A DNA stretch of 60,350 nucleotides from Desulfobacteraceae bacterium (GTDB lineage: Bacteria > Desulfobacterota > Desulfobacteria > Desulfobacterales > Desulfosalsimonadaceae): positions 24,001-84,350 of the forward strand of contig JABZFM010000016.1 in NCBI GenBank assembly GCA_014237465.1. Direction: 5' to 3'. Shown one piece after another: positions 36,003 to 53,488 of this stretch. The position numbers and the translations under genes are program-made. Under the pieces are notes generated by a model that worked only from the letters and a program-made list of their open reading frames with translations, ran no database searches and was not told where the DNA came from. The number at the start of each line of letters is the position of its first letter. The first letter of the stretch is position 1.

Positions 36003-36017
36003 ATTAAAGGAGTCCTT

Positions 36018-37379: not shown

Positions 37380-37517
37380 TGGCTTCGCAAAAAGTCCAAA
37401 TTCTGTGTTGCGCTGCATTCTTCGTTTTTCATAGTACGCTAAGTACGAATCATCACTCAGAATTTGCGCGCCTTGCCAGTTTTATTAGATTGGTGAACTT
37501 TTATACTTTGCCATCGA
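37377..37517. repeat. MITE-like element between rnfC and rnfD, copy 3 (diverged)
   Basis: A roughly 140-base element beginning at the rnfC stop. Its ends (TGATGGCTTCGCAAAAAGT and ACTTTTATACTTTGCCATCG) are inverted relatives of the TTGATGG family. Its interior matches the reverse complement of 49241-49370 closely, including GTTGCGCTGCAT and TTTGCGCGCCTT. It makes the rnfC-rnfD gap about 200 bases, unusual for this operon. Confidence 0.7.
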
Positions 37518-37578
37518 AATAAAACTTTTTACAGAACTATCTAAAATAACAAATAAAAACTCGGACTAAAGAATCTCC

Positions 37579-38589
37579 ATGAGTGATACAAACCTAAAAA
37601 AACAATCCCTGCCGAATAAAATCAAACCGGATGAAACCGGAGAAGCCCCTGTCATCCAGGTGGGTCATTCGCCGCATTTATCCAATGAATCATTCACAAC
37701 CCGCCGTATGATGATCGATGTCCTGATCGCTCTGCTGCCGGTTGTCGGTATGTCGGTTTATATATTCCAGCTATATGCCGTCAAACAGATGGTCATCTGC
37801 CTGGTGGCCTGCCTGGCGGCGGAAGCGGCTTTCATAAAAATGCGCAACAAATCTTTTTCACTATCAGATTGCTCCGCTGCAGTCACAGGTATCATACTCG
37901 GCCTTTCACTTCCGGCAACCGCTCCCTGGTACGTCGGCGTGATCGCATCGGTGGTTGCCATCGGCATCGGGAAGGTCATTTTTGGCGGCCTGGGCATGAA
38001 CCTGTTTAACCCGGCAATGGTCGGACGGGCATTTGTTATGATTGCATTTGCCGGGCTTATGGCCGCTTCCGGGTACGAAAGCCTTCATACCGGCATCGAC
38101 GCTATCACCCAGGCAACTCCCTTAAATGCATTCAAGCAGATGGGGATATCCACTTCCATCAAGGACCTGTTTTTCGGATTAACCAACGGCAGCCCGGGTG
38201 AAACCAGTGCACTGGCCTGCCTGGTCGGTGGAATTTACCTTTGTATCCGGCGAACAGCTTCCTGGGAAATACCGGCCGGAATTATTGCAATCGTTTTGAT
38301 CATGGGCGGCCTGGCCGACTTAATGGGAAGTGCTTCTGACTGGACGGTGCTTCATCACCTTTTCTCCGGTTCACTGTTATTCGGCGCATTTTTTATTGCG
38401 ACCGACCCGGTTTCCAGTCCCCTGACGGCAAAAGGAAAATTCATTTTCGGGGCAGGAATTGGTTTTTTTATTATGATTCTGCGTTTTTTCAGCGGATATC
38501 CCGAAGGGGTGATGTTTGCCGTTCTGCTTATGAATGCACTCACCCCGCTACTGAATCGCTGGACAATTCCGGCCGCCATGGGGGAATAA
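37579..38589 (+). CDS. rnfD: Rnf complex subunit RnfD
   Basis: 336 residues, integral membrane, about nine or ten hydrophobic segments. RnfD carries a covalent FMN on a Thr; the region PGETSALACLVGG corresponds to that site. It resembles NqrB. An N-terminal cytoplasmic stretch of about 45 residues precedes the first helix (LIALLPVVGMSVYIF). It lies after rnfC and a repeat element, and 51 bases before rnfG. Confidence 0.96.
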   Translation: MSDTNLKKQSLPNKIKPDETGEAPVIQVGHSPHLSNESFTTRRMMIDVLIALLPVVGMSVYIFQLYAVKQMVICLVACLAAEAAFIKMRNKSFSLSDCSAAVTGIILGLSLPATAPWYVGVIASVVAIGIGKVIFGGLGMNLFNPAMVGRAFVMIAFAGLMAASGYESLHTGIDAITQATPLNAFKQMGISTSIKDLFFGLTNGSPGETSALACLVGGIYLCIRRTASWEIPAGIIAIVLIMGGLADLMGSASDWTVLHHLFSGSLLFGAFFIATDPVSSPLTAKGKFIFGAGIGFFIMILRFFSGYPEGVMFAVLLMNALTPLLNRWTIPAAMGE

Positions 38590-38640
38590 ATATGAAATCT
38601 ATCGAATTTTAAATTTTGAATTTTTACGAGACGATAAATT

Positions 38641-39342
38641 ATGAACACATCACAGCAAACCGTGCCGGACAGTAAAAACCGGTTGAAAGATTTATTTATT
38701 TTTCAGGCATGGCTGGTCCTGCTGCTGGCATCCTTTTTTGGTGCCGCCCTGGCCGGCATCCAGCTGACACTTTCCCCAAAAATTGAAGCCAACAAACTTA
38801 ACGAAACTCTTGAAAAGGTACCGGAACTGATCCTGGGCGCCGATGCCGCGCAAGCATTTATCGATAAGAACCGGCAAATGGAAATTGACCGGCAATTCAT
38901 TGAAGCCGGCAAAAAAATATACAGTGTTTTTCAAGCCAAAACAAACGGACAAACCGCCGGGTGGGTCGTCAAATCATCCGGTCAGGGGTATGCGGGCAAA
39001 ATCGAATTACTGATCGGAGTGGACGCAAAATCGGAAGAAATTACCGGCCTGTTCATTCTGGATCAAAAGGAAACCCCGGGACTGGGAAACAAAATCATGG
39101 AATCGGTCTGGCGGAAACAGTTTATCAATAAATCGACACAGCAGCAGTTGACAGCGGTTAAGACAAAAGCCGCCGCACCCAATGAAATCAATGCCATTAC
39201 CGGCGCTACCATTTCATCAAAAAGCGTTTGTGGCATTGTTAATCAAAGCCTGGAGAACCTCCGGCAACCATTGGCAAGTGCCGCTTTAAACAATCAGAAC
39301 CCTTCTGACAATCAACCGAATAATAATCAGGAGAAAAAATAA
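38641..39342 (+). CDS. rnfG: Rnf complex subunit RnfG
   Basis: 233 residues with one N-terminal membrane helix (WLVLLLASFFGAALAGIQL) and a periplasmic FMN-binding domain. The covalent-flavin motif is ITGATISSKSV, with the Thr in the SGAT-type context, and DQKETPGLGNKI is also typical. The tail is Asn/Gln-rich. rnfE begins 4 bases after its stop. Confidence 0.96.
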   Translation: MNTSQQTVPDSKNRLKDLFIFQAWLVLLLASFFGAALAGIQLTLSPKIEANKLNETLEKVPELILGADAAQAFIDKNRQMEIDRQFIEAGKKIYSVFQAKTNGQTAGWVVKSSGQGYAGKIELLIGVDAKSEEITGLFILDQKETPGLGNKIMESVWRKQFINKSTQQQLTAVKTKAAAPNEINAITGATISSKSVCGIVNQSLENLRQPLASAALNNQNPSDNQPNNNQEKK

Positions 39343-39346
39343 GAAT

Positions 39347-39961
39347 ATGACAGATCAACCAACCGCCTTTGAACGATTCACACAGGGCATCTTGCCGGAA
39401 AATCCGGTTTACCGCCAATTGCTTGGCCTCTGTCCGGTACTGGCAGTGACTAACAGCATGCAGGGGGCAATGACTATGGCCGGCGCCGTGCTTTTTGTAT
39501 TGTTATGCGCCAATGTCATCATCAGCCTGATACGTGACCTGCTCAAACCCCATTTACGCATTGTTATTTTTACGTTGACCATTGCCACATTTGTGACCAT
39601 TGTGGACCGGTTTTTGGCCGCATACATGTATCAGATGAGTAAAAGTCTGGGGCCTTATATTCCCCTGATTATCGTCAACTGCATTATTATCTGCCGCTGC
39701 GAAGTCTGCGCATCCAAACAGTCGGTTTTAACCGCTGCTTCCGATGCCATCGGCCAGTCACTGGGTTTCGCTCTGGCCCTGGCCAGCATTGCATCTGTGC
39801 GTGAAATCCTGGGCACCGGCATGTTTTTCGGATTCCGGGTGCTTCCGAAAATGTGGCCGGACTGGGTCATCATGGTGCTACCGCCCGGCGCGTTTCTCAC
39901 ATTCGGACTCCTTTTGGGAGCGGTAAACTGGGTAGTTGCCAAAAAGAAGGCTAACGGTTGA
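39347..39961 (+). CDS. rnfE: Rnf complex subunit RnfE
   Basis: 204 residues, six membrane helices, homologous to NqrD. It carries conserved membrane Cys residues (CRCEVCASK region) that help hold a cluster shared with RnfA. The opening FTQGILPENPVYRQLLGLCPVLAVT is characteristic. It is tightly packed between rnfG and rnfA. Confidence 0.96.
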   Translation: MTDQPTAFERFTQGILPENPVYRQLLGLCPVLAVTNSMQGAMTMAGAVLFVLLCANVIISLIRDLLKPHLRIVIFTLTIATFVTIVDRFLAAYMYQMSKSLGPYIPLIIVNCIIICRCEVCASKQSVLTAASDAIGQSLGFALALASIASVREILGTGMFFGFRVLPKMWPDWVIMVLPPGAFLTFGLLLGAVNWVVAKKKANG

Positions 39962-39995
39962 AGGCCTAAACCCCTGATTTTTTTAAGGTGAAAAT

Positions 39996-40817
39996 ATGAA
40001 TTACCTGATTGACATCATGCTGATTGCCGTCAGCGCTGCTTTGATCAACAACTTCGTGTTGTATTATTTTGTCGGCATCTGCCCTTTCATCGGCGTATCC
40101 CGCCAGATCGACATGGCGGTCGGTATGGGCCTTGCGGTGACGTTTGTCATTTCCATTGCCGCATTCTTAAGCTGGACCATTACAACCATGGTGCTCATTC
40201 CCGGGGCTCCCCTGACCACATGGATCGGTGGGTTTTTCATGCCGCCGGATTCCGCCGCCCGGATTGATCTGACAATTTTAAGCTATATTGTTTATATTTT
40301 CGCTATTTCATCATCCGTGCAATTTGTTGAAATGTATGTCCGTAAATTTTTTCCCGCACTGTACAAATCGTTCGGTGTTTTCCTGCCGCTGATCACCACC
40401 AACTGTGCGATCCTGTTTGCCTGCTTAACGATTATGAGCCATGTAGCCGGAGTTGACAACCCGGCGGATGCCTGGGATCTGGGACGCTCCCTGACACTGG
40501 CCTTTTTCGGCGGGATCGGGTTTACCATAGCGATTGTCATTATGGCCGGTATTCGGGAAGAACTGGATTTCTGCGATATCCCCGAAGCATTAAAAGGGGC
40601 CGCGATTACACTGATCGTTGCCGGCATCTTATCCATGGCGTTTATGGGATTTACCGGTGTGGACACGGGCTTGAAAAAAGCGCTGAAAAAAAATTCCGTG
40701 AAACAGGTTTCCTTAAAGTCCGGCCCGAATAACGGCTATTTTTTACCGGACAGACAGGATATCGCCGCTGATACGTTGAATATTTGCTTACCTGGCAGCA
40801 GAGAGGAGTTGTCATGA
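39996..40817 (+). CDS. rnfA: Rnf complex subunit RnfA with C-terminal extension
   Basis: 273 residues. The core (about 1-220) is the six-helix RnfA/NqrE protein ([31 protein letters not shown]). Usual RnfA proteins end near residue 190-200, with AFMGFTG; here about 55 extra hydrophilic residues follow, rich in Lys, Ser and Asn. The last codons overlap the rnfB ATG (ATGA overlap), so translation is coupled. The extension has no motif I know. Confidence 0.94.
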
Positions 40818-41710
40818 TTTTTGTAACCATCGGACTGGCTGCAGGCACCATGCTGGTCATGGCCCTTGTTTTTTCATATGTGCTGGGATGGGCGAATACC
40901 GCTTTCCATGTAGAGGTGGACACCCGAATTGAGGCCATCATGGATGCGCTGCCGGGTGCCAATTGCGGCGGCTGCGGATTTATTGGCTGCGGGGAATATG
41001 CCGAGGCCGTGGTGGATGGGACAGCGGTCGATAAATGTACTGTCGGTGGCGAAAGCTGTACGGTGGACCTGGCCCAGATCATGGGGGTTGAAATCGGCGC
41101 CGCCCTGCCGTTTCGACCGGTTGTCCATTGCGGAGCGCATTATGAAGAACGCCTGGGCCGAACGGAGTATCATGGCGAACAGCGTTGCGTGTCCGCCAAT
41201 ATTGTGGCTGATGTACAGGGATGCACATACGGATGTCTTGGTTTTGGAGATTGTGCCAGTGTCTGCAATTATGACGCCCTTCATGTAATTGACGGCCTGG
41301 CGACGATTGATTATGAAAAATGCATCGGTTGCGGGGCCTGTGCCAGGGTCTGTCCCAGAAACATTATCACCATCACCCCGTTTAAAGCGGAACGGATTCT
41401 TGCGGTCACCTGCTCTAACAAAGACAAGGGCAAGGATATCACAAAGGTATGCACCGTGGGATGCATCGGATGCGGGGCCTGCGCTCGGGCGTCCGAGCTG
41501 TTTACCATTGAGGACAATCTTTCAACTATCAATTATGATGCGTATGAACCGGTATACGGACTTGACGTCATGAAAGCCTGCGAAAAATGCCCGCGAAAAC
41601 GTATTATTTTTGTCGGAAAATCAACTACCGATGATGTTGAAGAGTTCTCCGGTGAAGTGGTTGAGCCGGAATTCAAAACAACGGTGGATGATACGGAATG
41701 GCGGGGATAA
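40814..41710 (+). CDS. rnfB: Rnf complex subunit RnfB
   Basis: 298 residues: one N-terminal helix, then a Cys-rich cluster domain ([20 protein letters not shown]), which is the ferredoxin entry point, and further [4Fe-4S] motifs ([42 protein letters not shown]). The ATG at 40814 has GAGAGGAG upstream and overlaps the rnfA stop. It closes the rnfCDGEAB operon, the order seen in many anaerobes. The acidic C-terminus is about 40 residues past the last cluster. Confidence 0.96.
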
Positions 41711-43082: not shown

Positions 43083-43469
43083 ATGACCAATGATGTTATC
43101 GGATCGGTAATGGTGGTCGGTGGCGGAATCGCCGGTATGCAATCCGCCCTTGATCTGGCGGATTCCGGCTATTATGTTTACCTAGTTGAAAAAGAGCCAT
43201 CCATCGGCGGCGTCATGTCGCAGCTGGATAAAACGTTTCCCACCAACGACTGTGCCATGTGAATTATCTCACCTAAACTGGTCGAGGTCGGCCGGAACTT
43301 AAACATCGAACTAATCACATACGCAGATATTGATTCTGTTGAAGGATCTCCGGGTAAATTCAAGGTTAAAGTTAAAAAACGTGCACGAAGTATTATTGAA
43401 GACCGTTGTACGGGATGCGGTGCATGTGTTGAAAACTGCCCGGTGACCCAGATGGTTGCACCGGAATGA
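43083..43469 (+). CDS. hdrA: Selenoprotein: stand-alone N-terminal domain of HdrA (Sec at codon 60)
   Basis: The frame from ATG 43083 reads the HdrA flavin motif ([20 protein letters not shown]), [24 protein letters not shown], then TGA at 43260, then [17 protein letters not shown], and a [4Fe-4S] motif [13 protein letters not shown] before the real stop at 43467. In HdrA proteins a Cys or Sec sits exactly at this UGA position (second residue of CxxC), so it is read as Sec60. The product (128 residues) stops where normal HdrA continues. AGGAG precedes the ATG. The missing remainder resembles residues 204-510 of the 1085-residue protein four genes on. Confidence 0.85.
43260..43295 (+). promoter_or_regulatory. 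UGA codon and candidate bacterial SECIS hairpin (HdrA)
   Basis: After the UGA at 43260-43262, CTGGTC (43278-43283) can pair with GGCCGG (43290-43295) in six pairs, two of them G-U, around the loop GAGGTC. The loop starts 21 bases after UGA and has G first. Both features fit the bacterial SECIS pattern for SelB recruitment. Confidence 0.65.
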
Positions 43470-43529
43470 TTTATATCTGTTTGCCCTTTTAACTTATTCA
43501 GATTATTATAATTTTTTGGAGATTTGCGC

Positions 43530-44027
43530 ATGAGTGAGGCAGCCATGATGGAAAAAGTTGATGCTGTTGATATTGACTACATGGAACTGGATGACATCAT
43601 TGAAAAGGACTTTGGCCAGGACAAAGAGAACCTGATCATGATTCTTCAGGCAATCCAGAGACGTTACAACTACCTTCCCCCGCCTGCACTGAATTACCTT
43701 TCCACCAAAATCGGTATTCCCATGAGCCAGATATATGGTGTCGCCACTTTTTACAGCACATTCAGCCTGGAACCGAGAGGCCGGAATATCATATCCATCT
43801 GCCTTGGTACGGCCTGCCATGTCCGTGGCGGGGCTAGAGTAAATGATAAGCTAGAAGAACTGCTCAACATAAGCGATGGCCAGACCACTGATGATAAGCG
43901 ATTTACACTCGAGTCTGTCCGTTGTATCGGTTGCTGCAGCCTCGGACCGGTTGTAAAAATCAATGAAGACATGCATGGCCGGATCGGATCGGATGAAATA
44001 GAAAAAGTGTTGGATCAATATGAATAA
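43530..44027 (+). CDS. nuoE: NuoE/HndA-like [2Fe-2S] subunit
   Basis: 165 residues. The helical N-terminal part (LIMILQAIQRRYNYLPPPAL) and thioredoxin-fold [2Fe-2S] part (CLGTACHVRGG; SVRCIGCCSLGPV) define a NuoE/HoxE/HndA-type protein. It passes electrons with the NuoF partner encoded next. The ATG at 43530 has GGAG upstream. It lies 60 bases after the HdrA-N selenoprotein gene and 21 before nuoF, clearly co-transcribed. Confidence 0.93.
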   Translation: MSEAAMMEKVDAVDIDYMELDDIIEKDFGQDKENLIMILQAIQRRYNYLPPPALNYLSTKIGIPMSQIYGVATFYSTFSLEPRGRNIISICLGTACHVRGGARVNDKLEELLNISDGQTTDDKRFTLESVRCIGCCSLGPVVKINEDMHGRIGSDEIEKVLDQYE

Positions 44028-44048
44028 TACAGGTAAGAGGCAGCGATT

Positions 44049-45956
44049 ATGAAAATCCAGTCTTTAAAAGACTTAAAAAAAATAAGTCAAGCTTACGAAA
44101 AACAAATATACGCACCGGAAGGCATCAAAGTCAATATCGGCATGGCTTCATGCGGCATTGCCGCCGGTGCCCAGGCAGCCATGGATAAAGCCCTTGAAAC
44201 CTACAGGGACAATAAGAATGTTGAAATCTGCCAGACCGGCTGCATCGGCTTTTGTGAACAGGAACCATTAGTTGAGATTCTGGCTGTAAATAAGCCGCGG
44301 GTACTTTACCAGAATATCACTGAAGACAAAATTATTGATGCCATTGAAGGCTATATGGCCGGCGAGTTTAATAAAAATAAAAAATCGATACTGGGCCAGT
44401 TACGAGACCCCAGAAGTCTGTTAGACGATGATATCGAAAACCCGCTGGATGGGGTGGAACCCATTGACGACATCCCCTTTATGGAAGACATCCCTTTTTA
44501 CAGCGCTCAGGTCAAGGTGGCCATGCGAAACTGTGGGTACATTGATCCTGACTGTATCGAAGAATATTTTGCCAAAAAAGGATATATCGCCTTTCTGGAG
44601 GCGCTGAAAAAAAACAAACCCGCCGAAGTCATTGAAACCGTTAAGGCATCCGGCCTGAGAGGACGAGGCGGCGGCGGTTTTCCGGCTGGGATCAAGTGGG
44701 CCACATGTGCCAAGCACCATGGTGATCGCTACATTATCTGCAACGCGGATGAGGGTGATCCCGGCGCATACATGGATAGAAGTATTCTGGAAGGCGATCC
44801 TCACAGCGTTTTAGAGGGTATGCTGATTGCGGCACTGGGAATCGGTTCAAGCCAGGGGTACCTCTATGTACGCAATGAATATCCTCTGGCTGTGAAGCGT
44901 CTGGTGACTGCCATCAAACAGGCTGAAGCCTATGGACTTCTGGGTAAAAATATCGCCGGGACTGATTTTTCGTTTAAAATTAATATCTCCACCGGTGCCG
45001 GCGCTTTTGTATGCGGTGAATCCACTGCACTTATGGCCTCACTTGAAGGAAAAGTCGGTCGCCCGCGTGCCAAATATGTTCATACGGTTGAAAAGGGATT
45101 CCGCGAAAGTCCCACCAATCTGAACAATGTGGAAACATATGCCAATGTCCCGGCCATTCTGCTTAAAGGCGCAGACTGGTATACCGGCATGGGAACCGAA
45201 CACAGCAAAGGCACCAAGGTTTTCAGCCTGGTAGGTAAAATTAATAACACCGGCCTGGTGGAAGTCCCCATGGGCATCTCCCTGCGAGATATTATTTACG
45301 ATATCGGCGGCGGGATTCCCAAAAAGAAAAATTTCAAGGCCGTTCAAACCGGCGGCCCGTCCGGTGGATGTATTCCGGAACAGTTTCTGGATCTGTCGGT
45401 TGATTTTGATGAACTGGCCAAGGTGGGGTCCATCATGGGATCCGGCGGCATGATTGTCATGGATCAGGATACCTGCATGGTCGATGTGGCCCGTTACTTT
45501 GTTGACTTTCTCAGGGATGAATCATGCGGCCAGTGTAATCCCTGCCGTGAAGGCCTGAAACAGATGCTCGACATACTCACCGATATCTGTGACGGAAACG
45601 GCAAGAAAGGAGATATTGAATTTCTTGAAGAGATCGGGGCCATGATGCAGAAATTCTCCTTGTGTGGCCTGGGAACATCCGCTCCCAACCCTGTCTTAAC
45701 CAGCATTCTTTTTTTCCGGGATGAATATGAGGCCCATATCCGTGACAAAAAATGTTCAGCAGGCGTTTGTAAGCCCCTGTTCCATTATGAAATCGATCCG
45801 GATGCATGTAATGGCTGTACATTATGCGCAAAAAAATGTCCGCAAAACGCCGTTGCCGGTAAGAAAAAAGAACCTCATGTCATTGACCAGGAAAACTGTA
45901 TAAAATGTGGTATTTGTTACGAAAAATGTAAATTTGATGCCATCAAGATCTGCTAA
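44049..45956 (+). CDS. nuoF: NuoF/HndC-like NADH-binding subunit with ferredoxin tail
   Basis: 635 residues. The N-terminus is a [2Fe-2S] thioredoxin-like domain (Cys35, Cys61, Cys65, Cys69). The NuoF core has the NADH/FMN sites (GLRGRGGGGFPAGIKW; CNADEGDPGAYMDRS) and the [4Fe-4S] motif CGQCNPCREG. The C-terminus adds two ferredoxin motifs (CNGCTLCAKKCP; CIKCGICYEKC). This is the arrangement of NAD-dependent bifurcating hydrogenase and formate dehydrogenase subunits (HndC/HydB). No hydrogenase subunit follows; the partner is the HdrA fusion. Confidence 0.95.
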   Translation: MKIQSLKDLKKISQAYEKQIYAPEGIKVNIGMASCGIAAGAQAAMDKALETYRDNKNVEICQTGCIGFCEQEPLVEILAVNKPRVLYQNITEDKIIDAIEGYMAGEFNKNKKSILGQLRDPRSLLDDDIENPLDGVEPIDDIPFMEDIPFYSAQVKVAMRNCGYIDPDCIEEYFAKKGYIAFLEALKKNKPAEVIETVKASGLRGRGGGGFPAGIKWATCAKHHGDRYIICNADEGDPGAYMDRSILEGDPHSVLEGMLIAALGIGSSQGYLYVRNEYPLAVKRLVTAIKQAEAYGLLGKNIAGTDFSFKINISTGAGAFVCGESTALMASLEGKVGRPRAKYVHTVEKGFRESPTNLNNVETYANVPAILLKGADWYTGMGTEHSKGTKVFSLVGKINNTGLVEVPMGISLRDIIYDIGGGIPKKKNFKAVQTGGPSGGCIPEQFLDLSVDFDELAKVGSIMGSGGMIVMDQDTCMVDVARYFVDFLRDESCGQCNPCREGLKQMLDILTDICDGNGKKGDIEFLEEIGAMMQKFSLCGLGTSAPNPVLTSILFFRDEYEAHIRDKKCSAGVCKPLFHYEIDPDACNGCTLCAKKCPQNAVAGKKKEPHVIDQENCIKCGICYEKCKFDAIKIC

Positions 45957-45974
45957 TAAAAGGAAAGACTATTC

Positions 45975-48900
45975 ATGATTACTTTCAAGCTTAACGGACA
46001 AACAGTTCAAGGCGAGGAAGGCCAATACATTATCCATGTGGCTGAAAAATACGGGGTTGATATCCCGACCCTTTGCAATCACAAGGCTCTTGAACCGGCT
46101 GGCATGTGCCGGATATGTACGGTGGAACTTTTTGACGGACGACGATCCCGTTTCGTCACTTCATGTAATTATCCCATCTGGGAAGGCATGGAAGTCACGA
46201 CCGATTCGGAACTGGTTCGCGAAGGCCGGAAACTGATTGTTGAAATGCTGCTGGCCCGTTGCCCGGAAGTACCTGCCGTACAGAAACTGGCAGATGATTA
46301 TGGAATTAAAGAGATACGTTTTAAAAAAGGCGATGACACCTGTATTCTATGTGGTCTCTGCACACGTGTCTGTGAAAAAATGGGCGCCAAGGCCATCAGC
46401 CTGACCGGCCGCGGTGTGGACATGAAAGTCGACACCCCCTATCACCTGATCACGGACGCCTGTATCGGTTGCGGTGCCTGTGCATCGCTCTGTCCGACGG
46501 GACACATTACATTAGACAAGATTAATACCGAGCACACCAATTTAAATACGCAACTAATCCCTTCGGAATACGAAATGGGACTCAAAGGACGCAAACCGAT
46601 TTATGTCCCGTATGCCCAGGCAGTACCGAACACGCCGGCAATTGATCGGGATGTGTGCGTGCACTTTAAAACCGGCGGCTGTCAAATCTGTACGGAATTC
46701 TGCGGTGTTGACGCTATCAATCACGACATGGAAGACGAGATTGTGGAACTGGAAGTGGGATCCATTATTCTGGCACCGGGATTCAAACCATTTGATCCTT
46801 CCCAGTTTGACGTATATGGTTATTCAAAACACCCGAATGTCATTACCTCTATGGAAATGGAACGGTATTTGTCCGCTTCCGGTCCCACCGGCGGCCATCT
46901 GATTCGTCCTTCCGATCATCAGGAACCTAAAAAAATCGCGTGGTTTCAGTGTGTCGGTTCCCGGGATTTAAACCGGTGCGACAATTCTTACTGTTCTTCC
47001 GTCTGCTGCATGTACGCGATAAAGGAAGCAACCATTGCCAAGGAACATGCGGGTGAAAATCTGGACTGTGCCATCTTTTTCATGGACATGAGAACGCCGG
47101 GCAAGGAATTCGAACGATTTTATGAAAATGCGAAGGAAAAACACGGGGTACGTTTTGTGCGAAGCCGGGTACACACCATTGATCCGCTTCCCGGCGGCAA
47201 TGAGCTCTCCCTCCGGTATGTAACGGAAGACGGAAAAGCGATAACAGAAGAATTTGACATGATTGTCCTTTCCATCGGCCTTGAGACACCACCGGAACTC
47301 GTTGATCTTGCCGGCCGACTGAATATTGAGCTGACGCCCGGCAACTTTGCTAAAACCGATTCATTTAATCCGGTTGCCACTTCCCGGGATGGAATTTTTG
47401 TCTGTGGCGCATTCCAGGGCCCCAAGGATATCCCCCAGTCGGTTATTGATGCCAGTGCGGCTGCCGCGGCTGCCGGTGAAATGCTCACCATCGCCAGAAA
47501 CACCATGACCAAAAAGAAAGACATTGTCCCGGAAACCAACATTGTGGGTGAACGTCCGAAAATCGGTGTTTTTGTATGTAAATGCGGCACCAACATCGCC
47601 GGTGTCGTCGATGTTCCGGCTGTTCGCGATTATGCCGCCAACCTCCCCTATGTGGAATATGTTAACGACAACCTGTATTCATGTTCCCAGGACACCCAGG
47701 AAACAATGGCCCAGATTATTCAGCAGAAAAATCTGAATCGGGTGGTTGTTGCCGCCTGTACCCCCAAAACTCACGAACCGTTGTTCCAGGAAACCCTGAT
47801 TAATGCGGGTCTGAATAAATACCTCTTTGAAATGACGAATATCCGTAATCACGATTCATGGGTGCATAAAAACAATCCGGAGCTGGCGACCGAAAAGGCC
47901 AAGGACCTGGTTCGGATGGCCGTGGCCAAGGTCGCTCTTATGGAACCGCTTATAGAGACGGAATTAACAGTCAACCAGACGGCGATGGTCATCGGCGGCG
48001 GCATTTCAGGATTAACCGCTTCGAAAAGCCTTGCTGACCAGGGATATGAAACCCATTTGATTGAGCAGAATTCCCAGTTAGGCGGTCAGGCGGTCAACCT
48101 TTTTCATACCGCCCAGGGAGATAATATCCAGCAGAGACTGTCGGAACTGATCAATTCCGTTGAAAAAAACGATAATGTCAAAATTCATTTGGACACGAAA
48201 ATATCGAATGTGGACGGCTTTGTCGGCAACTTTACCTCTACTTTATCATCCAACGGCAGTACACAGGAACTTGAACACGGCATTGCAGTTCTGGCGACCG
48301 GCGCCGCTCCCTATACCCCGACGGAATATGATTATGGAAAAAACCCGAAAATTCTGACCACCCTTGAGCTGGACCAGAAATTGATTGCCGATGATCCCAT
48401 GCTCAAAAAATTGAATTCAGCAGTATTTATCCAGTGTGTCGGGTCAAGGGAACCGGAACGACAATACTGTTCACGGGTCTGCTGTACCCATTCCATTGAA
48501 AATGCCCTGGAACTCAAAAAACTGAATCCGGACATGAACGTCTATATCCTTTATCGTGATATCCGGACTTATGGTGAAAAAGAATACCTGTACCGTCAGG
48601 CAAGGGAAACGGGGGTGATCTTTATCCGCTATTCTCTGGATGATAAACCGCTGGTTGCTGCCAAAGACGGCAATATTACCGTAACCGTCACAGATCATGT
48701 ACTGGGTCGCCCCATGGAACTTGATGTGGATATGGTCGCTCTTGCAACCGCCATTATACCGTATGGTGATGAAAAGCTGGCCAATTTCTTTAAGGTTCCC
48801 ATGAACGAAGACGGCTTTTTTATTGAAAAACACGCAAAACTCGGACCTTCGGAATTTGCAACAGATGGTACGTTCCTCTGCGGGATGGCGCACTATCCCA

Positions 48901-49232
48901 AACCGATTGACGAATCCATCGCCCAGGCAAAAGCGGCATCCTCACGCGCCGTAACCCTTCTGTCTCAAAAAACCATTTTCAGCAGTGGTACCATCGCTGA
49001 AGTGGAACCGATGAAATGCGCGGCCTGCGGTGTTTGCGTATCCGTCTGTCCATACAGCGCACCTGCTTTTAATGAAGAAGGCCGTTTTGCCGGAAAAGCA
49101 GAGATCAACCCGGTGCTTTGCAAGGGCTGCGGTCTCTGCGTCGCTTCCTGCCGATCCGGTGCAATTCATTTGAAAGGATTTGACACAGACCAGATCTTTT
49201 CCCAGATTTTTGAACTTGAAGAAGCGATTTGA
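45975..49232 (+). CDS. hdrA: NuoG-head/HdrA-part/HdrA fusion protein
   Basis: 1085 residues. The head has a [2Fe-2S] site (Cys34, 45, 48, 64) and two [4Fe-4S] motifs (CILCGLCTRVC at 123-133; [12 protein letters not shown] at 163-174). HdrA module I (about 204-510) starts at RKPIYVPYAQAVPN and has CQICTEFCGVDA and SYCSSVCCMYAIK, but lacks the FAD-GGG and CxxC/U part. Module II (about 529-1000) is a fuller HdrA with VFVCKCG, VIGGGISGL and YCSRVCC, without the CxxC/U insert. Two [4Fe-4S] motifs close it (1015-1025; 1049-1059). It is probably the flavin hub of the complex. Confidence 0.92.
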   Translation: MITFKLNGQTVQGEEGQYIIHVAEKYGVDIPTLCNHKALEPAGMCRICTVELFDGRRSRFVTSCNYPIWEGMEVTTDSELVREGRKLIVEMLLARCPEVPAVQKLADDYGIKEIRFKKGDDTCILCGLCTRVCEKMGAKAISLTGRGVDMKVDTPYHLITDACIGCGACASLCPTGHITLDKINTEHTNLNTQLIPSEYEMGLKGRKPIYVPYAQAVPNTPAIDRDVCVHFKTGGCQICTEFCGVDAINHDMEDEIVELEVGSIILAPGFKPFDPSQFDVYGYSKHPNVITSMEMERYLSASGPTGGHLIRPSDHQEPKKIAWFQCVGSRDLNRCDNSYCSSVCCMYAIKEATIAKEHAGENLDCAIFFMDMRTPGKEFERFYENAKEKHGVRFVRSRVHTIDPLPGGNELSLRYVTEDGKAITEEFDMIVLSIGLETPPELVDLAGRLNIELTPGNFAKTDSFNPVATSRDGIFVCGAFQGPKDIPQSVIDASAAAAAAGEMLTIARNTMTKKKDIVPETNIVGERPKIGVFVCKCGTNIAGVVDVPAVRDYAANLPYVEYVNDNLYSCSQDTQETMAQIIQQKNLNRVVVAACTPKTHEPLFQETLINAGLNKYLFEMTNIRNHDSWVHKNNPELATEKAKDLVRMAVAKVALMEPLIETELTVNQTAMVIGGGISGLTASKSLADQGYETHLIEQNSQLGGQAVNLFHTAQGDNIQQRLSELINSVEKNDNVKIHLDTKISNVDGFVGNFTSTLSSNGSTQELEHGIAVLATGAAPYTPTEYDYGKNPKILTTLELDQKLIADDPMLKKLNSAVFIQCVGSREPERQYCSRVCCTHSIENALELKKLNPDMNVYILYRDIRTYGEKEYLYRQARETGVIFIRYSLDDKPLVAAKDGNITVTVTDHVLGRPMELDVDMVALATAIIPYGDEKLANFFKVPMNEDGFFIEKHAKLGPSEFATDGTFLCGMAHYPKPIDESIAQAKAASSRAVTLLSQKTIFSSGTIAEVEPMKCAACGVCVSVCPYSAPAFNEEGRFAGKAEINPVLCKGCGLCVASCRSGAIHLKGFDTDQIFSQIFELEEAI

Positions 49233-49240
49233 TAAATAAA

Positions 49241-49370
49241 TTAGATGGCAAAGAAAAAAGCTTCAAATTTAAGGCGCGCAAAACCTGAGTAATGATTAGT
49301 ACTTTTCGTACTTTGAAGCAGCGAAGGATGCAGCGCAACGCAGAAGTTGAGCTTTTTACGAAGCTGTCAA
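49241..49370. repeat. MITE-like element between the HdrA fusion and flxD, copy 4
   Basis: A roughly 130-base element with a right end CTTTTTACGAAGCTGTCAA and a left end ATGGCAAAGAAAAAAGC; the interior matches the rnfC-rnfD copy in reverse orientation. It starts about 9 bases after the fusion gene's stop, inside what otherwise looks like one operon. Confidence 0.7.
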
Positions 49371-49400
49371 GGATAGACGTAAATAAGGAGACATATTGAA

Positions 49401-49835
49401 ATGGCCAAAAATGAACCGAAAATACTAAGCTTTCTCTGCAATTGGTGCAGCTATGGCGCTGCCGATTTAGCCGGCGTCAGCCGGATGGAATATCCGCCCA
49501 ATATTCGCGTGATCCGAATACCGTGCACCGGGCGGATGAGTCCTAAATTTATTCTGGCAGGATTAAGGCAGGGGGCCGACGCTGTCTGGGTCTCCGGCTG
49601 ACATCCCGGCGAATGCTATTACCTGGAAGGTAATTATTACGCACGTCGGAAATTTGCATTAATGAAAAACATGCTGGAACATACGGGTATTGAACCGGGC
49701 CGACTTCATTTTTCATGGATATCATCAGCTGAGTCCACCAAATTTGTGGATGTTGTAACAAAAATTACGGATGAAGTAAAAGCGCTGGATCCGGCAAATA
49801 AAAAATATGTCAAAACCGAACCTAAGGTTGATTAA
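49401..49835 (+). CDS. flxD: Selenoprotein MvhD/FlxD-like [2Fe-2S] subunit (Sec at codon 67)
   Basis: The frame from ATG 49401 (GGAG upstream) reads CNWCSYGAADLAGVSR, RIPCTGRMSPKF, VSG, TGA at 49599, then HPGECYYLEGNYYARRK and ends at TAA 49833. In MvhD proteins this position is Cys (or Sec in some) in the motif xHPGxC, so the product is a 144-residue selenoprotein with likely cluster ligands Cys13, Cys16, Cys42, Sec67 and Cys72. MvhD links an electron donor module to HdrA. The stop overlaps no gene; flxC starts 2 bases later. Confidence 0.9.
49599..49634 (+). promoter_or_regulatory. UGA codon and candidate bacterial SECIS hairpin (FlxD)
   Basis: ATTACC (49618-49623) pairs perfectly with GGTAAT (49629-49634) around loop TGGAA. 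The loop starts 22 bases after the UGA and has G as its second base, both matching the bacterial SECIS pattern. Confidence 0.75.
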
Positions 49836-49836
49836 A

Positions 49837-50784
49837 ATGACGGAATATACGGATAAAATAAAAGAAATCGCAAAACGCGTACTAACTGAAGGCAAAGTTG
49901 AAATGGTCATCGGGTTTCGTGAAGGAAGCGTTCCCATGATGAACCAGCCCCATTATGCCACATCCGCCGAATCAGTTGACGAACTGGTATGGGACTGCAA
50001 TTGCGGCCTCAATCTTGCCAACTATATTACTGATAAAAAAGGGAACATCGGAATCATTGCCAAAGGTTGTGATTCCAGAAATATTGTCACCCATGTGATC
50101 GAAAATAAAATCAAGCGGGATCAGTTATATATTATTGGTGTCCCCTGTACCGGAATGATTGATCATCAAAAAATCAATGCCATGTTCGACCAGGAAATCT
50201 TAACAGTCGAAGAATCCGGTGACAAGATTACAATTACAGGCAACGGGTTTTCTAAAACAATGAGCAAGCAAGAGCTCCTTACCGAAAATTGCGCTGTTTG
50301 CACCCATCGAAACCCGATTGAATATGATGAACTGGCGGGCGACCTTGTTGAAGAGCAAAAAGATGTGGATCCTTACGCATCGGTTACAAAAGTCGAATCC
50401 ATGTCTGCGGATGAAAAATGGAATTATTTTGAGGACCTGCTTTCTCCCTGCATTCGGTGTTACGCATGTCGTAATGCATGTCCGTTGTGCTACTGCCCCA
50501 CCTGTTTTGTGGATGAATCAAGACCCCAGTGGGTGGGAAAAAGCCAGGATCCTACAGATGTGAGAACATTTCATCTGCTAAGGGCATATCATTGTGCCGG
50601 CCGATGTACGGATTGCGGCGCTTGTGAGAGAGTCTGCCCCATGGGGATCAAGATCAGGGAATTTACTAAAAAATTAAACAAAGACTGCCTGGAACTCTAT
50701 GGCTGGGAAGCCGGTCTGTCGCTTGACGAACGCCCGCCTCTGGATACATTTAAAACAGATGACCCGGATGAATTTATTAAGTAA
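49837..50784 (+). CDS. flxC: FlxC-like Fe-S subunit
   Basis: 315 residues. The N-terminal half resembles the F420-hydrogenase beta/FrhB-type fold (GIIAKGCDSRNIV; IIGVPCTGMI; ENCAVCTHRNP). The C-terminal half has ferredoxin-like Cys groups (CIRCYACRNACPLCYCPTC; CTDCGACERVCPMG). This is the pattern of the iron-sulfur subunits of the Flx NADH dehydrogenase that feeds HdrABC. The ATG at 49837, after AAGG, is preferred to an earlier ATG inside flxD. The naming as FlxC rather than FlxB is by general resemblance. Confidence 0.75.
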   Translation: MTEYTDKIKEIAKRVLTEGKVEMVIGFREGSVPMMNQPHYATSAESVDELVWDCNCGLNLANYITDKKGNIGIIAKGCDSRNIVTHVIENKIKRDQLYIIGVPCTGMIDHQKINAMFDQEILTVEESGDKITITGNGFSKTMSKQELLTENCAVCTHRNPIEYDELAGDLVEEQKDVDPYASVTKVESMSADEKWNYFEDLLSPCIRCYACRNACPLCYCPTCFVDESRPQWVGKSQDPTDVRTFHLLRAYHCAGRCTDCGACERVCPMGIKIREFTKKLNKDCLELYGWEAGLSLDERPPLDTFKTDDPDEFIK

Positions 50785-50822
50785 TCATTGATGATAAAAA
50801 TATTTTTCACACAATTTTTAAT

Positions 50823-50975
50823 TTGACGATTTCGTAAAAAGTAACCGATGGCTAAGTTAAAAGTTCCATATACAAGGCGTAGCGATTTTTCAGAATTGAA
50901 ATAATACATGCAGTATATTGAAAGACTGAAAAACCGCTACAACGCAGTAGATGGGACTTTTAACGACGCCATCAA
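50823..50975. repeat. MITE-like element between flxC and flxB, copy 5
   Basis: A 153-base element with left end TTGACGATTTCGTAAAAAGT and right end ACTTTTAACGACGCCATCAA. Its right 48 bases are the exact reverse complement of the left 48 bases of the copy at 23136-23289. It opens a 212-base gap in the middle of the flx genes. Confidence 0.8.
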
Positions 50976-50996
50976 ATATTGATAAGGGCAAAACTT

Positions 50997-52070
50997 ATGA
51001 AGCTCATCAAAATTGACCAACAAAGCTGGGCCGCCGGAATCGAGAAAGTAAAATCCGATTATCGCGTTTTTGGTCCTGTTAAAGAAAAAAACGATCATGA
51101 GTTTAAATTATTGGAACAAAATGAAATGCCGGATGTAAATTGTCAGAACACACGGCTTTCACCCAAATCCATCATATATCCACAGTCCCAGGTGATGTTT
51201 ACCTACAGTCTTGATGAAAGTAAAGATGACTGCCGCATCATGAAGGAAGTGGAAAATGTCAAATCGCCCATGGCGATCATTGGTGTACGGCCCTGTGATG
51301 CACTGGCATTTCCCATTGTCCGCCGGAACTTTGACTCACCGGAATACCAGGACACCTATTGGATCAAGGCGTATGAAGCGACCACATTTGTCGGCCTTGC
51401 CTGCAATTCGGCCTGCGGCACCTGCTTCTGTACATCCGCCGGCACCGGACCGTTCGGTGAAGAAGGCCTGGACGTTCTAATGATTGCCGACGGTGATGAC
51501 TTGTATGCAAAGTCCATTACTGCCAAAGGTGAGTCGTTTATCCAGGCAGCCGGATGGACAACGGAAGCCGAATCCGCTGTTGATTCAAAAATTGATGAAC
51601 TGAAAACAGCTGCGGAATCCAGCATCAATTCTTCAGTCGCGACAGATAAGATTAAAAACAAAACAATCCTTGAACTCTATGATGCCCCTTTCTGGGAAGA
51701 AGAAGCGTTTGCCTGCATTAATTGCGGCACATGCACGTATGTCTGCCCGACGTGCTGGTGCTTTGATGTTCAGGATGAAACCCATGGGAAATCCGGAATC
51801 CGGATGCGAAACTGGGACAGTTGTATGTTCCCTTTGTTTACGCACCACGCATCCGGGCATAACCCGAGAAATGTTAAGTATGAACGGCTCCGGCAGCGTT
51901 TCATGCACAAATTGAAATACTACGTGGATAAATACGATAACGGCATTCAATGTGTTGGGTGTGGACGATGTATTCGCCTCTGTCCGGTCAATATTGATAT
52001 ACGAAAAATATGCTACAAAATGAACAGCTTTGACGCCGAAAGCTGCGTCTGCGAAGCAACATCGTCTTAG
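50997..52070 (+). CDS. flxB: FlxB-like [4Fe-4S] subunit (AsrA-type)
   Basis: 357 residues. IIGVRPCDALAF and GLACNSACGTCFCTSAG in the first half, then two ferredoxin motifs (CINCGTCTYVCPTC; CVGCGRCIRLCP) at the C-terminal side. This is the AsrA/sulfhydrogenase-beta type found in FlxB. It probably shuttles electrons from FlxA toward FlxD and HdrA. The ATG at 50997 is preferred to an upstream in-frame ATG that lies close to the repeat element. flxA follows after 16 bases. Confidence 0.8.
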   Translation: MKLIKIDQQSWAAGIEKVKSDYRVFGPVKEKNDHEFKLLEQNEMPDVNCQNTRLSPKSIIYPQSQVMFTYSLDESKDDCRIMKEVENVKSPMAIIGVRPCDALAFPIVRRNFDSPEYQDTYWIKAYEATTFVGLACNSACGTCFCTSAGTGPFGEEGLDVLMIADGDDLYAKSITAKGESFIQAAGWTTEAESAVDSKIDELKTAAESSINSSVATDKIKNKTILELYDAPFWEEEAFACINCGTCTYVCPTCWCFDVQDETHGKSGIRMRNWDSCMFPLFTHHASGHNPRNVKYERLRQRFMHKLKYYVDKYDNGIQCVGCGRCIRLCPVNIDIRKICYKMNSFDAESCVCEATSS

Positions 52071-52086
52071 CAAAGGGGGGTTATAA

Positions 52087-52932
52087 GTGCAAAATCCATA
52101 TTTACCATATCCGGTTCGCATTGATGAAATTATTACCGAAACCGAGGATAAAAGTTTAAAAACATTTAAATTTGTCTTTCTGAATCCAGCGGATGAAGAA
52201 AAATTTGTTTATGAATCCGGCCAGTTTGGAGAGCTTTCGATTCCCGGCCAGGGTGAAATCCCCATCGGTATTGCTTCATCTCCTGCGGAAAAAGGATTTA
52301 TCAAATTTACCGTATTCAAGACCGGAAAAGTCACCTCTTACCTTCATGCCATGAAGGAAGGTGAAATTATGGGTGTCCGGGGACCTTTGGGACATCCTTT
52401 TCCATGGAAAACCTTAGAAGGCAAAAATATTGTCATCATCGGCGGCGGATTTGCTTTTACCACCCTGCGATCATCGATTATAAGTATTCTGGATCCGGCG
52501 AATCGTTCCAAATTTAAGGACATTCATGTAATTTACGGTGCCCGTTCCCCCGGCATGCTCTTATACAAGGATGAACTTTCCGCATGGGCCCAACGGGATG
52601 ATATCAATATGCATATCACTGTTGACGGAACAGATGACCCGGACTGGAAATACCTGACCGGTTTTGTTCCCACGATCACGGAACAAAAAGCGCCTCCGGG
52701 AAGCGACGACACATATGCAATCATTTGCGGTCCCCCGATCATGATCAAATTTACCCAGCCGGTGTTAGACAACCTGGGATACAGTTATGACAATATCATC
52801 ATGTCACTGGAAAACAGAATGAAATGCGGTATCGGTATCTGCGGCCGATGCAATATCGGAAAAGAGTTTGTCTGCAAAGACGGACCTGTGTTTACCCTTT
52901 CGCAACTCAACGAGATGCCGAAAGAATATTAA
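52087..52932 (+). CDS. flxA: FlxA-like FAD/NAD(P)H-binding subunit (AsrB/HydG-type)
   Basis: 281 residues of the ferredoxin-reductase fold. The FAD region has IPIGIASSP; the NAD(P) domain has VIIGGGFAFTTLRSS; and a C-terminal [2Fe-2S] site reads MKCGIGICGRCNIG with a later Cys (FVCKDGPVF). It is the pyridine-nucleotide entry subunit of the Flx module and resembles AsrB and sulfhydrogenase gamma. The start is GTG, preceded by AAAGGGGGG. It is the last gene before the dsrC promoter region. Confidence 0.82.
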   Translation: MQNPYLPYPVRIDEIITETEDKSLKTFKFVFLNPADEEKFVYESGQFGELSIPGQGEIPIGIASSPAEKGFIKFTVFKTGKVTSYLHAMKEGEIMGVRGPLGHPFPWKTLEGKNIVIIGGGFAFTTLRSSIISILDPANRSKFKDIHVIYGARSPGMLLYKDELSAWAQRDDINMHITVDGTDDPDWKYLTGFVPTITEQKAPPGSDDTYAIICGPPIMIKFTQPVLDNLGYSYDNIIMSLENRMKCGIGICGRCNIGKEFVCKDGPVFTLSQLNEMPKEY

Positions 52933-52964
52933 TTTTATATTTGTTATTATAATAAGGCATTATA

Positions 52965-53006
52965 CAATATCAAAATTATGAGATGAATTTCATAATTTTG
53001 ATATTG
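52965..53006. promoter_or_regulatory. 16-base inverted repeat before dsrC
   Basis: CAATATCAAAATTATG (52965-52980) and CATAATTTTGATATTG (52991-53006) are perfect inverted repeats with a 10-base spacer. The right arm overlaps the TTGACA at 53004. It could be an operator for dsrC or the end hairpin of the flx transcript; there is no T tract, which favours an operator. Confidence 0.7.
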
Positions 53007-53030
53007 ACAATAAATTTGTTTTCATATATC
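53004..53030 (+). promoter_or_regulatory. Candidate sigma-70 promoter of dsrC
   Basis: TTGACA (53004-53009) with an AT-rich spacer and TATATC (53025-53030) at a 15-base spacing, slightly short. It lies about 85 bases before the dsrC ATG, in a 180-base gap after flxA. Together with the palindrome it suggests dsrC has its own controlled promoter. Confidence 0.5.
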
Positions 53031-53112
53031 TGGTTTATTTACTCTAATATCTACAAATAGAAGGCAAGAGATAAGCCAAATAATATATTAATTTTTAAAG
53101 GAGGAATATTCC

Positions 53113-53430
53113 ATGGCATTAGTAGAATTTGAAGGTAGCTCATTTAATGTAGACGAAGATGGATTCATTGAAGATTTCGCAGCATATAACGAATCTTGGG
53201 TACAATTGGTAAAAAAAGAAGAAGGTATTGATGAATTAAATGAAGAACACTGGAAAGTCATCAATGTTTTACAGGATTACTACAAGAAAAACGGTATTGC
53301 ACCGATGGTTCGAATTCTGTCCAAGCTGACCGGTTTCAAACTGAAACACATCTATGAACTGTTTCCGTCAGGCCCGGGCAAAGGAGCTTGTAAAATGGCC
53401 GGATTACCGAAACCGACCGGCTGTGTATAA
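53113..53430 (+). CDS. dsrC: DsrC sulfur-carrier protein
   Basis: 105 residues. DsrC carries sulfur from dissimilatory sulfite reductase as a trisulfide on two conserved C-terminal Cys. Both are present: GACKMAGLPKPTGCV, with the penultimate Cys in the swinging arm. AAAGGAGG precedes the ATG. Codon use looks A/T-rich, as is common for highly expressed small proteins. It is monocistronic, between its own promoter and a strong terminator, immediately downstream of the Hdr/Flx genes. Its heterodisulfide is a known type of Hdr substrate. Confidence 0.97.
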   Translation: MALVEFEGSSFNVDEDGFIEDFAAYNESWVQLVKKEEGIDELNEEHWKVINVLQDYYKKNGIAPMVRILSKLTGFKLKHIYELFPSGPGKGACKMAGLPKPTGCV

Positions 53431-53460
53431 TTAGATTTCTCTACTTATGATTATGTATAA

Positions 53461-53488
53461 AGCCCTGCTGTTACAGCAGGGCTTTTTG
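53461..53488 (+). terminator. Rho-independent terminator of dsrC
   Basis: AGCCCTGCTG pairs perfectly with CAGCAGGGCT around a three-base loop and is followed by TTTTT, 30 bases after the dsrC stop. Confidence 0.95.

Follow-up and report, generated by a model that had tools for sequence, protein, structure and literature searches.

How is a NuoEF pair attached when its genes stand among hdrA, flx and dsrC genes, and do all of these genes serve one machine? The question is raised by a stretch of 60,350 nucleotides from a Desulfobacteraceae bacterium (GenBank assembly GCA_014237465.1, contig JABZFM010000016.1, positions 24,001 to 84,350), here called the window, which lies on contig C24 of a genome of 5.09 Mb that is 99.96% complete. 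Nine genes follow each other on the plus strand of the window between positions 43083 and 53430: HdrA-N, NuoE, NuoF, a double HdrA, FlxD, FlxC, FlxB, FlxA and dsrC. An earlier note, made from the sequence, had listed this set and proposed a bifurcating complex; all nine genes were found again on this strand (Table 1). The NuoEF genes turned out to be nested inside the first HdrA. The anatomy was read directly from the sequences and is well supported: it comprises the parts, this split, the Bfu ligands, the three forms of the operon, and the UGA codons with a hairpin behind each. Loci, genomes and contigs are referred to by our own L, G and C numbers, and papers are cited by PMC number.

A split HdrA with a nested module

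Pfam families were matched by NuoE, NuoF, FlxA, DsrC and FlxD (PF02662), and the double HdrA reached 797 bits against the NCBIfam model HdrA2, which is under the cut-off of 1100 for that model. For no protein of the nine was a match to the CCG (HdrB) family of Pfam found, which agrees with the absence of HdrB and HdrC from the operon as first described.

HdrA-N contains the Rossmann motif for flavin adenine dinucleotide (FAD), a selenocysteine (Sec) at residue 60 and the first motif of the inserted ferredoxin domain, and its five best PDB matches are all HdrA chains. The fusion protein has 1085 amino acids and opens with a NuoG-type domain (Fer2_4 plus 4Fe-4S, Fer4_7); the first HdrA within it, HdrA-1, is without the part that HdrA-N supplies. 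Both proteins were mapped on the one-piece HdrA of a reference locus (L065, 1013 amino acids), of which HdrA-N spans residues 1-120 with 70% identity and the fusion residues 101-1013. Because the two tile the one-piece protein, the NuoEF/NuoG set lies within HdrA-1: nuoE, nuoF and the NuoG domain stand inside its inserted ferredoxin domain, at the first CxxCxxC motif, and this motif is found in both halves. By its sequence HdrA-N provides the half that the first HdrA lacks, and the mapping rules it out as a spare subunit. Of the NuoEF-HdrA-Flx locus described in the earlier note the parts are real, while NuoEF as a mere neighbour of the Hdr-Flx genes has to be given up for NuoEF nested inside HdrA.

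In HdrA-1 the Cys197 site is taken by Sec and an N-terminal cluster domain is lacking; this domain is found in HdrA-2, whose Rossmann part is without a Cys of the Cys197 type. The features that define HdrA (FAD motif, inserted ferredoxin domain, N-terminal cluster domain and Cys197 ligand) are all present, spread over two polypeptides and two HdrA units. In anaerobic methanotrophic archaea (ANME), tandem HdrA proteins with complementary N-domain and Cys197 have been read as following a heterodimer rule (PMC9012536), and the complementarity of HdrA-1 and HdrA-2 is of the same kind. One related locus with the NuoEF split (L132, genome G190) carries a second HdrA-N, again with UGA, and a double HdrA between the first set and FlxD.

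Selenocysteine sites

The genes hdrA-N and flxD have one in-frame TGA each and for this reason were missed by the ordinary list of open reading frames (ORFs). Residue 60 of HdrA-N aligns with residue 197 (145+52) of the HdrA chain in 5odc, the Cys197 that is named and described as a cluster ligand in PMC9012536. The HdrA chain of 9sfi has an X in the same column, which is probably Sec.

Behind each TGA lies a hairpin resembling a selenocysteine insertion sequence (SECIS). The hairpins were evaluated on motif-verified sequences of relatives, 90 distinct hdrA-N and 74 distinct flxD, and the percentage of each third base was taken among the sequences with the commonest residue at that codon. In the six hairpin codons of both genes one third base occurs in 98-100% of the sequences. 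Outside the hairpin of hdrA-N the corresponding values are 46-90% in the five codons from the TGA to the hairpin and 39-67% in the eight codons after it. For flxD they are 42-86% in the five codons before, with the exception of one Glu codon at 100%, and 35-82% in the 13 codons after. Pairing is kept in 99% of the pair counts, and since the stems are invariant no double changes were seen. Third positions frozen in this way argue for an RNA element, which is why we read hdrA-N and flxD as genes of predicted selenoproteins. Sec in HdrA, HdrL and MvhD is known from Desulfobacterium autotrophicum (PMC2702500).

Mechanically both frames are broken, as would be expected if the UGA codons were true stops and the two genes had decayed. 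Real stops are nevertheless ruled out by the invariant or nearly invariant third positions over the 90 and 74 sequences; the genome has tRNA-Sec and SelB, both over their cut-offs, and one UGA falls on the Cys197 site of HdrA, so that we consider decay improbable in the extreme.

NuoEF as a Bfu-type module

NuoF has as its nine best PDB chains proteins of the HydB type and their kin (named HydB, HoxF and NfnB) with 586-712 bits, and the best of the complex I chains reached 357 bits; a leftover of complex I was rejected on this difference. The sequence features of the Bfu family were found, namely the BfuB domain set (by Pfam equivalents of the InterPro domains), BfuC (NuoE; PF01257) and BfuA with [2Fe-2S] and 4Fe-4S domains.

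Five ligands of the B2 cluster have been described for a NiFe-Bfu enzyme, of which the His is absent from non-bifurcating homologs (PMC9304861). All five are present in NuoF as C476, C514, H563, C569 and C574, by a hand count on the alignment with 7t2r_B. Among 107 rows of NuoF from Hdr loci, in which some genomes occur twice (as they do in the 65 rows of DsrC used below), C476, H563, C569 and C574 are kept in all 107 and C514 in 99. The three other NuoF homologs of the genome keep the His, and two of them have T for C514. By its sequence the NuoEF module belongs to the Bfu family, and that it is of the bifurcating kind is judged from the ligands. What the earlier note had expected, two pyridine-nucleotide sites (NuoF and FlxA) together with the Hdr flavins, is indeed what the sequences predict.

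The tree of NuoF has long branches that meet. Two loci with sister HdrA tails, L061 and L129, have their NuoF in two different subclades, which hints at an exchange of NuoEF only. Three loci (L141, L143 and L147) have a GltD-like domain after HdrA-N, NuoE, NuoF, then NuoG-HdrA, which amounts to a Stn-like set nested in HdrA.

Three forms of the operon and their proposed exchange

The operon was found in three forms. Type a is the split form with NuoEF, type b has a one-piece HdrA-HdrA, and type c has a longer HdrA with a GltD/NfnB-like insert. In the type c HdrA of L067 (1482 amino acids) the GltD insert replaces residues 152-186 in L065 numbering. The insert is absent from the HdrA of the window; it was matched in G007, G010, G019, G049 and G051, and its site was mapped in G010. 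Eleven genomes of the genus of the window were searched, giving type a in G000, G002, G004 and G005, type b in G003, G006 and G009 and type c in G007 and G010, with no form assigned to G001 and G008.

Of 61 loci, 29 have a match to miaA next to the operon and seven have one to rnfB, and these include all three forms within the genus. Many loci of farther relatives lack miaA although there is room for it. As miaA is mostly a neighbour in near relatives, the shared place of the operon is best shown within the genus and the family. DsrC was found in 14 of 20 FlxC-bearing loci of type a, 11 of 17 of type b and all five of type c, and of the loci without a match only L131 offers ample space behind flxA. 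The type b locus L065 is 73% identical to the window in the HdrA tail, and 94, 88, 83, 92 and 94% identical in FlxD, FlxC, FlxB, FlxA and DsrC, respectively.

Trees were made from 37 of the 61 loci (18 a, 14 b and 5 c, L154 being type b by coverage) that had FlxC, FlxB and FlxA matches above set identities. They are quick trees with values of the Shimodaira-Hasegawa-like approximate likelihood ratio test (SH-aLRT) only, they rest on draft genomes, and insert and tail are parts of one gene or cluster. On the tree of FlxC+B+A the form changes 15 times; shuffled forms give a mean of 15.2, and in 113 of 200 shuffles the number is no higher than observed. On the tree of the HdrA tail it changes 8 times, as low as in none of 200 shuffles. 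Forms that are scattered on the Flx tree and clustered on the HdrA-tail tree are most simply explained if hdrA and its plug are exchanged as a unit in a resident operon.

Conservation of the cluster

At least 20 of 60 close genomes have the fusion in full length, and in a sample of 395 genomes from the phylum at least 20 have it as one stretch, the window's own genome being included in both counts. The loci from GTDB genomes are the best 80 of at least 546 confirmed stretches. Their titles name Desulfobacterota or are unspecific (e.g. Proteobacteria bacterium), and one cultured carrier is among these best 80, Desulfatitalea alkaliphila M08but (NZ_JALJRB010000040.1, locus L175). In the same set HdrA-N, NuoE and NuoF precede the fusion in all 50 loci with more than 3.8 kb upstream, and the HdrA-N match is broken by a stop in 49 of these 50. 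A stop inside a match is printed as U whatever the codon, which makes these flags loose (e.g. for FlxD of L135), and the motif-based count is that of the 90 and 74 sequences above. Downstream of the fusion, 44 loci have more than 4.5 kb; FlxD was found in 42 of them, FlxC, FlxB and FlxA in 39 each and DsrC in 34. Five of the ten loci without DsrC have no FlxA match, and four (L220, L221, L227 and L237) have FlxA with 2 kb or more of sequence behind it. A gene set conserved to this extent is not a chance cluster, and the phylogenetic profile, proposed in the earlier note as a check, thus gave an order that is conserved across relatives.

Within 8 kb of the 20 type a loci that carry Flx genes, several of which are incomplete, no HdrB or HdrC match of 60 bits or more was found on the same strand. 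Among all 37 type a loci, as far as contig ends allow, 20 have FlxC, seven have HdrB or HdrC nearby, none has both and ten have neither. Distant loci have other genes after MvhD: L140 has subunits of a [NiFe]-hydrogenase, L147 the large subunit of one, and L145 a MetV-like protein (PF12225); no metF was seen in L145, the next scanned gene being ComA. It seems that partners can also be exchanged at FlxD/MvhD, with the core as their hub.

DsrC and HdrBC in the genome

The C-terminus of DsrC is identical in 64 of 65 rows, the remaining row ending one residue early. Of the DsrC matches in the genome only the one in the operon extends to the end of the model, and dsrA is present with 615 bits, well over the cut-off. 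For Desulfovibrio vulgaris an interaction of DsrC with Flx-HdrABC is stated in PMC10504309. The link to dsrC that had been suggested for this locus stands in that dsrC is present; it is not specific to NuoEF, as the operon without NuoEF also ends in dsrC.

A search for hdrBC elsewhere in the genome, also proposed earlier, did find such genes: a cluster on contig C65 (L072) encodes a CCG protein (HdrB), with neighbours that are MvhD-, HdrC- and HdrA-like by position and motif. Contig C20 of G000 encodes, at 35897-37301 and 51429-52052 (L085 and L088), three proteins of 215-234 amino acids with two tandem DsrC-like domains each. These domains stop short of the C-terminal end of the model, and the first two proteins follow a gene that by eye resembles the large subunit of an Ech/NuoD-type hydrogenase.

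Proposed mechanism and alternatives

The reading that we prefer, and which we regard as close to an even call, is that the operon encodes one soluble cytoplasmic electron-bifurcating complex with a Bfu plug at the ferredoxin port of HdrA-1, where the port module is exchangeable and the high-potential branch most likely serves sulfur chemistry (DsrC). Assembly into one complex, the path of the electrons, the direction of their flow and the link to DsrC are what we infer from the sequences, and as a mechanism this is moderately supported. The core would be an asymmetric HdrA pair, made of the split, Sec-bearing HdrA-1 and of HdrA-2 with its N-terminal cluster domain. FlxA would oxidise or reduce NAD(P)H, and electrons would pass through FlxB, FlxC and the Sec-containing FlxD to or from the HdrA flavins. 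In the HdrA of methanogens the low-potential arm runs from the N-domain cluster, with Cys197 as a ligand, to an exit by the inserted ferredoxin domain (PMC9012536); here this arm would meet NuoG-N and the flavin mononucleotide (FMN) site of Bfu at the opened ferredoxin domain. As the ferredoxin domain would be wired to the Bfu module, the port would exchange electrons with NADH and ferredoxin. In the type III HdrA of archaea this domain holds a GltD insert, which has been modelled as possibly blocking ferredoxin (PMC12054007).

Since the operon has no HdrBC, the high-potential acceptor would be a CCG protein supplied in trans, or there would be none. This branch would most likely lead to DsrC by way of a thiol/disulfide reductase encoded elsewhere, and DsrC, complete up to the end of the model and with both C-terminal cysteines in place, would be the natural candidate acceptor, perhaps as the trisulfide suggested in the earlier note. 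The port would hold Bfu in type a, nothing in type b and GltD in type c (HdrL-like), all in the same operon. A wider version seems to us possible, although we would sooner bet against it: the Hdr-FAD chemistry and the Bfu-FMN/FeS chemistry, independently evolved, would be joined head to tail through the HdrA ferredoxin domain into a two-stage machine, and a general plug (Bfu for NADH plus ferredoxin, GltD for NAD(P)H, or free ferredoxin) would be swapped by recombination between close species, retuning one dsrC-linked respiratory complex to the redox pool of the cell.

Several findings weigh against a single complex of this kind. HdrBC, the disulfide-reducing part of the known Flx-Hdr, is absent from the operon; C514 is substituted in 8 of the 107 NuoF rows, and HydABC of S. 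wolfei, with a NuoF homolog of the same build, is non-bifurcating (PMC5861303). The single-sequence energies of the two hairpins are weak (z -0.3 to -1.8), so that they are not unusual by energy. dsrC also follows types b and c, it is missing after flxA in L220, L221, L227 and L237 despite the room, and its leader of 180 bp is AT-rich with a palindrome and a promoter-like site, so that dsrC may be transcribed alone from its own promoter. The operon has gaps of 168 bp after the hdrA fusion, 212 bp after flxC and 180 bp after flxA, it is interrupted by a 127-bp repeat, and the hdrA fusion ends in a weaker terminator-like site (49172-49201, 11 pairs, 3 G-C). In L133 (G424) and L134 (G095) NuoF and the NuoG-HdrA-HdrA fusion occur without HdrA-N, NuoE, FlxD and FlxCBA despite room; these loci have a reduced or rearranged form and indicate that the module can stand without those genes.

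The same three gaps, the terminator-like site before flxD, the repeat between flxC and flxB and the promoter-like site before dsrC would suit two separate enzymes at one locus, NuoEF-HdrA and Flx, with dsrC served by its own promoter, and other lineages do carry the NuoEF-HdrA core without FlxCBA (L133 and L134 also without FlxD). FlxD/MvhD is the HdrA-binding subunit in characterised Hdr complexes. It stands between both parts here and was matched in 32 of the 37 type a loci (of the five loci without a match, three are incomplete); FlxDCBA moreover follows HdrA alike in types a, b and c, and we judge two enzymes unlikely. Somewhat more credit, though still well short of an even chance, is given to a ferredoxin-dependent transhydrogenase in which NAD(P)H at FlxA is exchanged with NADH plus ferredoxin at Bfu through the HdrA flavins, with no disulfide acceptor and with dsrC a mere neighbour. 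The two nucleotide sites, the lack of HdrBC in the operon, the four Flx loci with room but no dsrC after flxA, and the existence of Bfu-like transhydrogenases (Stn; PMC10482914) speak for it. The window, however, already has a pair of NfnB and an NfnA-like protein (GltA-type and PRK06222-type, both over cut-off; 26338-28628, minus strand), which is a candidate ferredoxin-dependent transhydrogenase, and the type b operon without a second nucleotide site keeps FlxA and dsrC. The confurcating transhydrogenase raised in the earlier note thus has its two nucleotide sites, and its pure version is weakened by the Nfn-like pair and by the one-piece operon. We think it very unlikely that the complex is a Bam-like low-potential machine, in which Bfu would confurcate NADH and reduced ferredoxin into HdrA and give electrons of very low potential for a hard reduction. 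In the Bam-Bfu complex of class II benzoyl-CoA reductase, Bfu is likewise paired with HdrA, and the same model has been proposed for it (PMC9304861), but no tungsten subunit of the aldehyde oxidoreductase (AOR) type (BamB) is among the nine proteins of the operon, and FlxCBA and dsrC are found where BamB would stand.

Relation to known systems

FlxABCD-HdrABC of D. vulgaris has FlxA, B, C and D with HdrA, and a linkage to DsrC (PMC10504309). The operon of the window differs from it in having no HdrB or HdrC, a tandem HdrA with one unit split, an inserted Bfu module with a NuoG domain, and Sec at two sites. BamF is the MvhD-type subunit of the Bam-Bfu complex. This class II benzoyl-CoA reductase (BamB-I) also unites HdrA and BfuABC-type subunits in one complex, for which bifurcation in two steps has been proposed (PMC9304861). 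There the Bfu subunits are separate proteins (G, H and I), whereas here they are nested in or fused to HdrA, and the operon has FlxCBA and DsrC instead of BamBC; a search that covered its nine proteins found no member of the BamB/BamC family.

HdrL of D. autotrophicum is an HdrA-type fusion with Sec (HdrL1 and HdrL3), a nucleotide-binding module and mvhD next to it, and HdrL1 stands before dsrABC (PMC2702500). Compared by description only, it resembles type c; unlike the window's proteins it is described as a glutamate-synthase fusion, not NuoEFG, and is one polypeptide. Another comparison is with HdrA 9-11 of ANME-1 and the type III HdrA of methane archaea; for the ANME-1 form two bifurcation sites have been suggested (PMC9012536, PMC12054007). 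These proteins are archaeal and have an NfnB/GltD insert, and the cited passages describe no splitting by other genes. Bfu (HydABC-type) enzymes, including the Stn transhydrogenase, share the BfuB ligands and domain order, BfuC and a minimal BfuA; the third partner here is HdrA and not a hydrogenase, a formate dehydrogenase or GltD. Desulfotignum phosphitoxidans has NuoEFG, HdrA and MvhD in putative transcription units, which have other gene orders and, in the passages cited, no split HdrA, Flx or dsrC (PMC4046663).

Sec-HdrA, HdrL with its GltD insert and the pairing of Hdr with Bfu (benzoyl-CoA reductase) were thus already known. No prior account of HdrA split by NuoEF, of the form with Flx and dsrC or of exchange within a genus was found in searches of an open-access library. 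Four kinds of bifurcating flavoenzyme have been described as independently evolved (PMC5861303), and two of them would be physically merged here, with matched operons (the merger, another module, or none) within one genus. Comparison of such close relatives makes it testable where ferredoxin meets HdrA and whether the complex is retuned to NADH, NADPH or ferredoxin, and the locus could show how electron-bifurcating enzymes change fuel. To the energy metabolism of sulfate reducers it adds an NAD(P)H enzyme, usually beside dsrC, and a conserved site at which Sec is expected to be a ligand of an iron-sulfur cluster.

Other features of the region

The start codons of NuoE (ATG 43530) and FlxB (ATG 50997) are from reading the sequence, the ORF list having TTG 43524 and TTG 50979. 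NuoF ends in a 2x[4Fe-4S] domain and resembles a [2Fe-2S] domain in its N-terminal stretch, and the C-terminal part of FlxC resembles FdhB of F420-dependent formate dehydrogenase (69-76 bits).

Table 1. Positions of genes and sequence elements in the window, with the evidence for each
Feature	Position	Strand	Evidence and remarks
HdrA-N, N-terminal half of first HdrA	43083..43469	+	128 aa with Sec; translation, PDB
UGA of hdrA-N read as Sec	43260..43262	+	codon 60, DCAM-U-IISPK; Cys197 position of 5odc HdrA
SECIS-like hairpin of hdrA-N	43278..43295	+	loop AGGU; fold and third-position conservation
NuoE / BfuC-type [2Fe-2S] subunit	43530..44027	+	PF01257, E 5.8e-48
NuoF / BfuB (HydB)-type FMN subunit	44049..45956	+	Pfam, PDB, ligand conservation
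NuoG-N (BfuA-type) domain fused to remainder of HdrA-1 and HdrA-2	45975..49232	+	Pfam, NCBIfam, PDB, one-piece HdrA mapping
FlxD / MvhD [2Fe-2S] subunit with Sec67	49401..49835	+	PF02662, E 9.8e-51, UGA read as Cys
UGA of flxD read as Sec	49599..49601	+	codon 67, VSG-U-HPGECYY
SECIS-like hairpin of flxD	49618..49634	+	loop GGA; fold and third-position conservation
FlxC, 4Fe-4S dicluster subunit	49837..50784	+	profile and PDB matches
127-bp palindromic dispersed repeat, between flxC and flxB	50847..50973	+	miniature inverted-repeat transposable element (MITE)-like; genome repeat scan
FlxB, sulfhydrogenase-beta / AsrA-like 4Fe-4S subunit	50997..52070	+	profile matches
FlxA, FAD/NAD(P)H subunit, sulfhydrogenase-gamma-like	52087..52932	+	profile matches
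20-nt inverted repeat upstream of dsrC	52965..53006	+	beside promoter-like site 52941-52968
dsrC, both C-terminal cysteines (ACKMAGLPKPTGCV)	53113..53430	+	PF04358
Intrinsic-terminator-like hairpin after dsrC	53459..53485	+	12 pairs, 7 G-C; best such site

The 127-bp element is an imperfect palindrome with 39 other scored places in the genome, 80-94% identical and on many contigs (40 of 83 candidates were scored). The earlier note had spoken of two internal repeats; if we guess correctly which were meant, the stretch of 212 bp between flxC and flxB is accounted for by this dispersed element. The inverted repeat before dsrC possibly marks a promoter or operator of its own. Promoter-like sites, by consensus match only, number 27 in the region and 20.9 in shuffled sequences (standard deviation 5.0), and a search of the operon with Rfam gave two matches, both under their gathering scores.

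An Rnf cluster (C, D, G, two subunits of the RnfA/E type and B) lies directly upstream at 36018-41710 on the plus strand, and miaA stands on the opposite strand between this cluster and the Hdr operon. Farther upstream, at 31795-33183 on the minus strand, the window encodes a protein of 462 amino acids with 4Fe-4S and CCG domains, which has modest CCG scores and no NCBIfam match at 1e-20; it is a possible thiol/disulfide or DsrK/GlpC-like partner.

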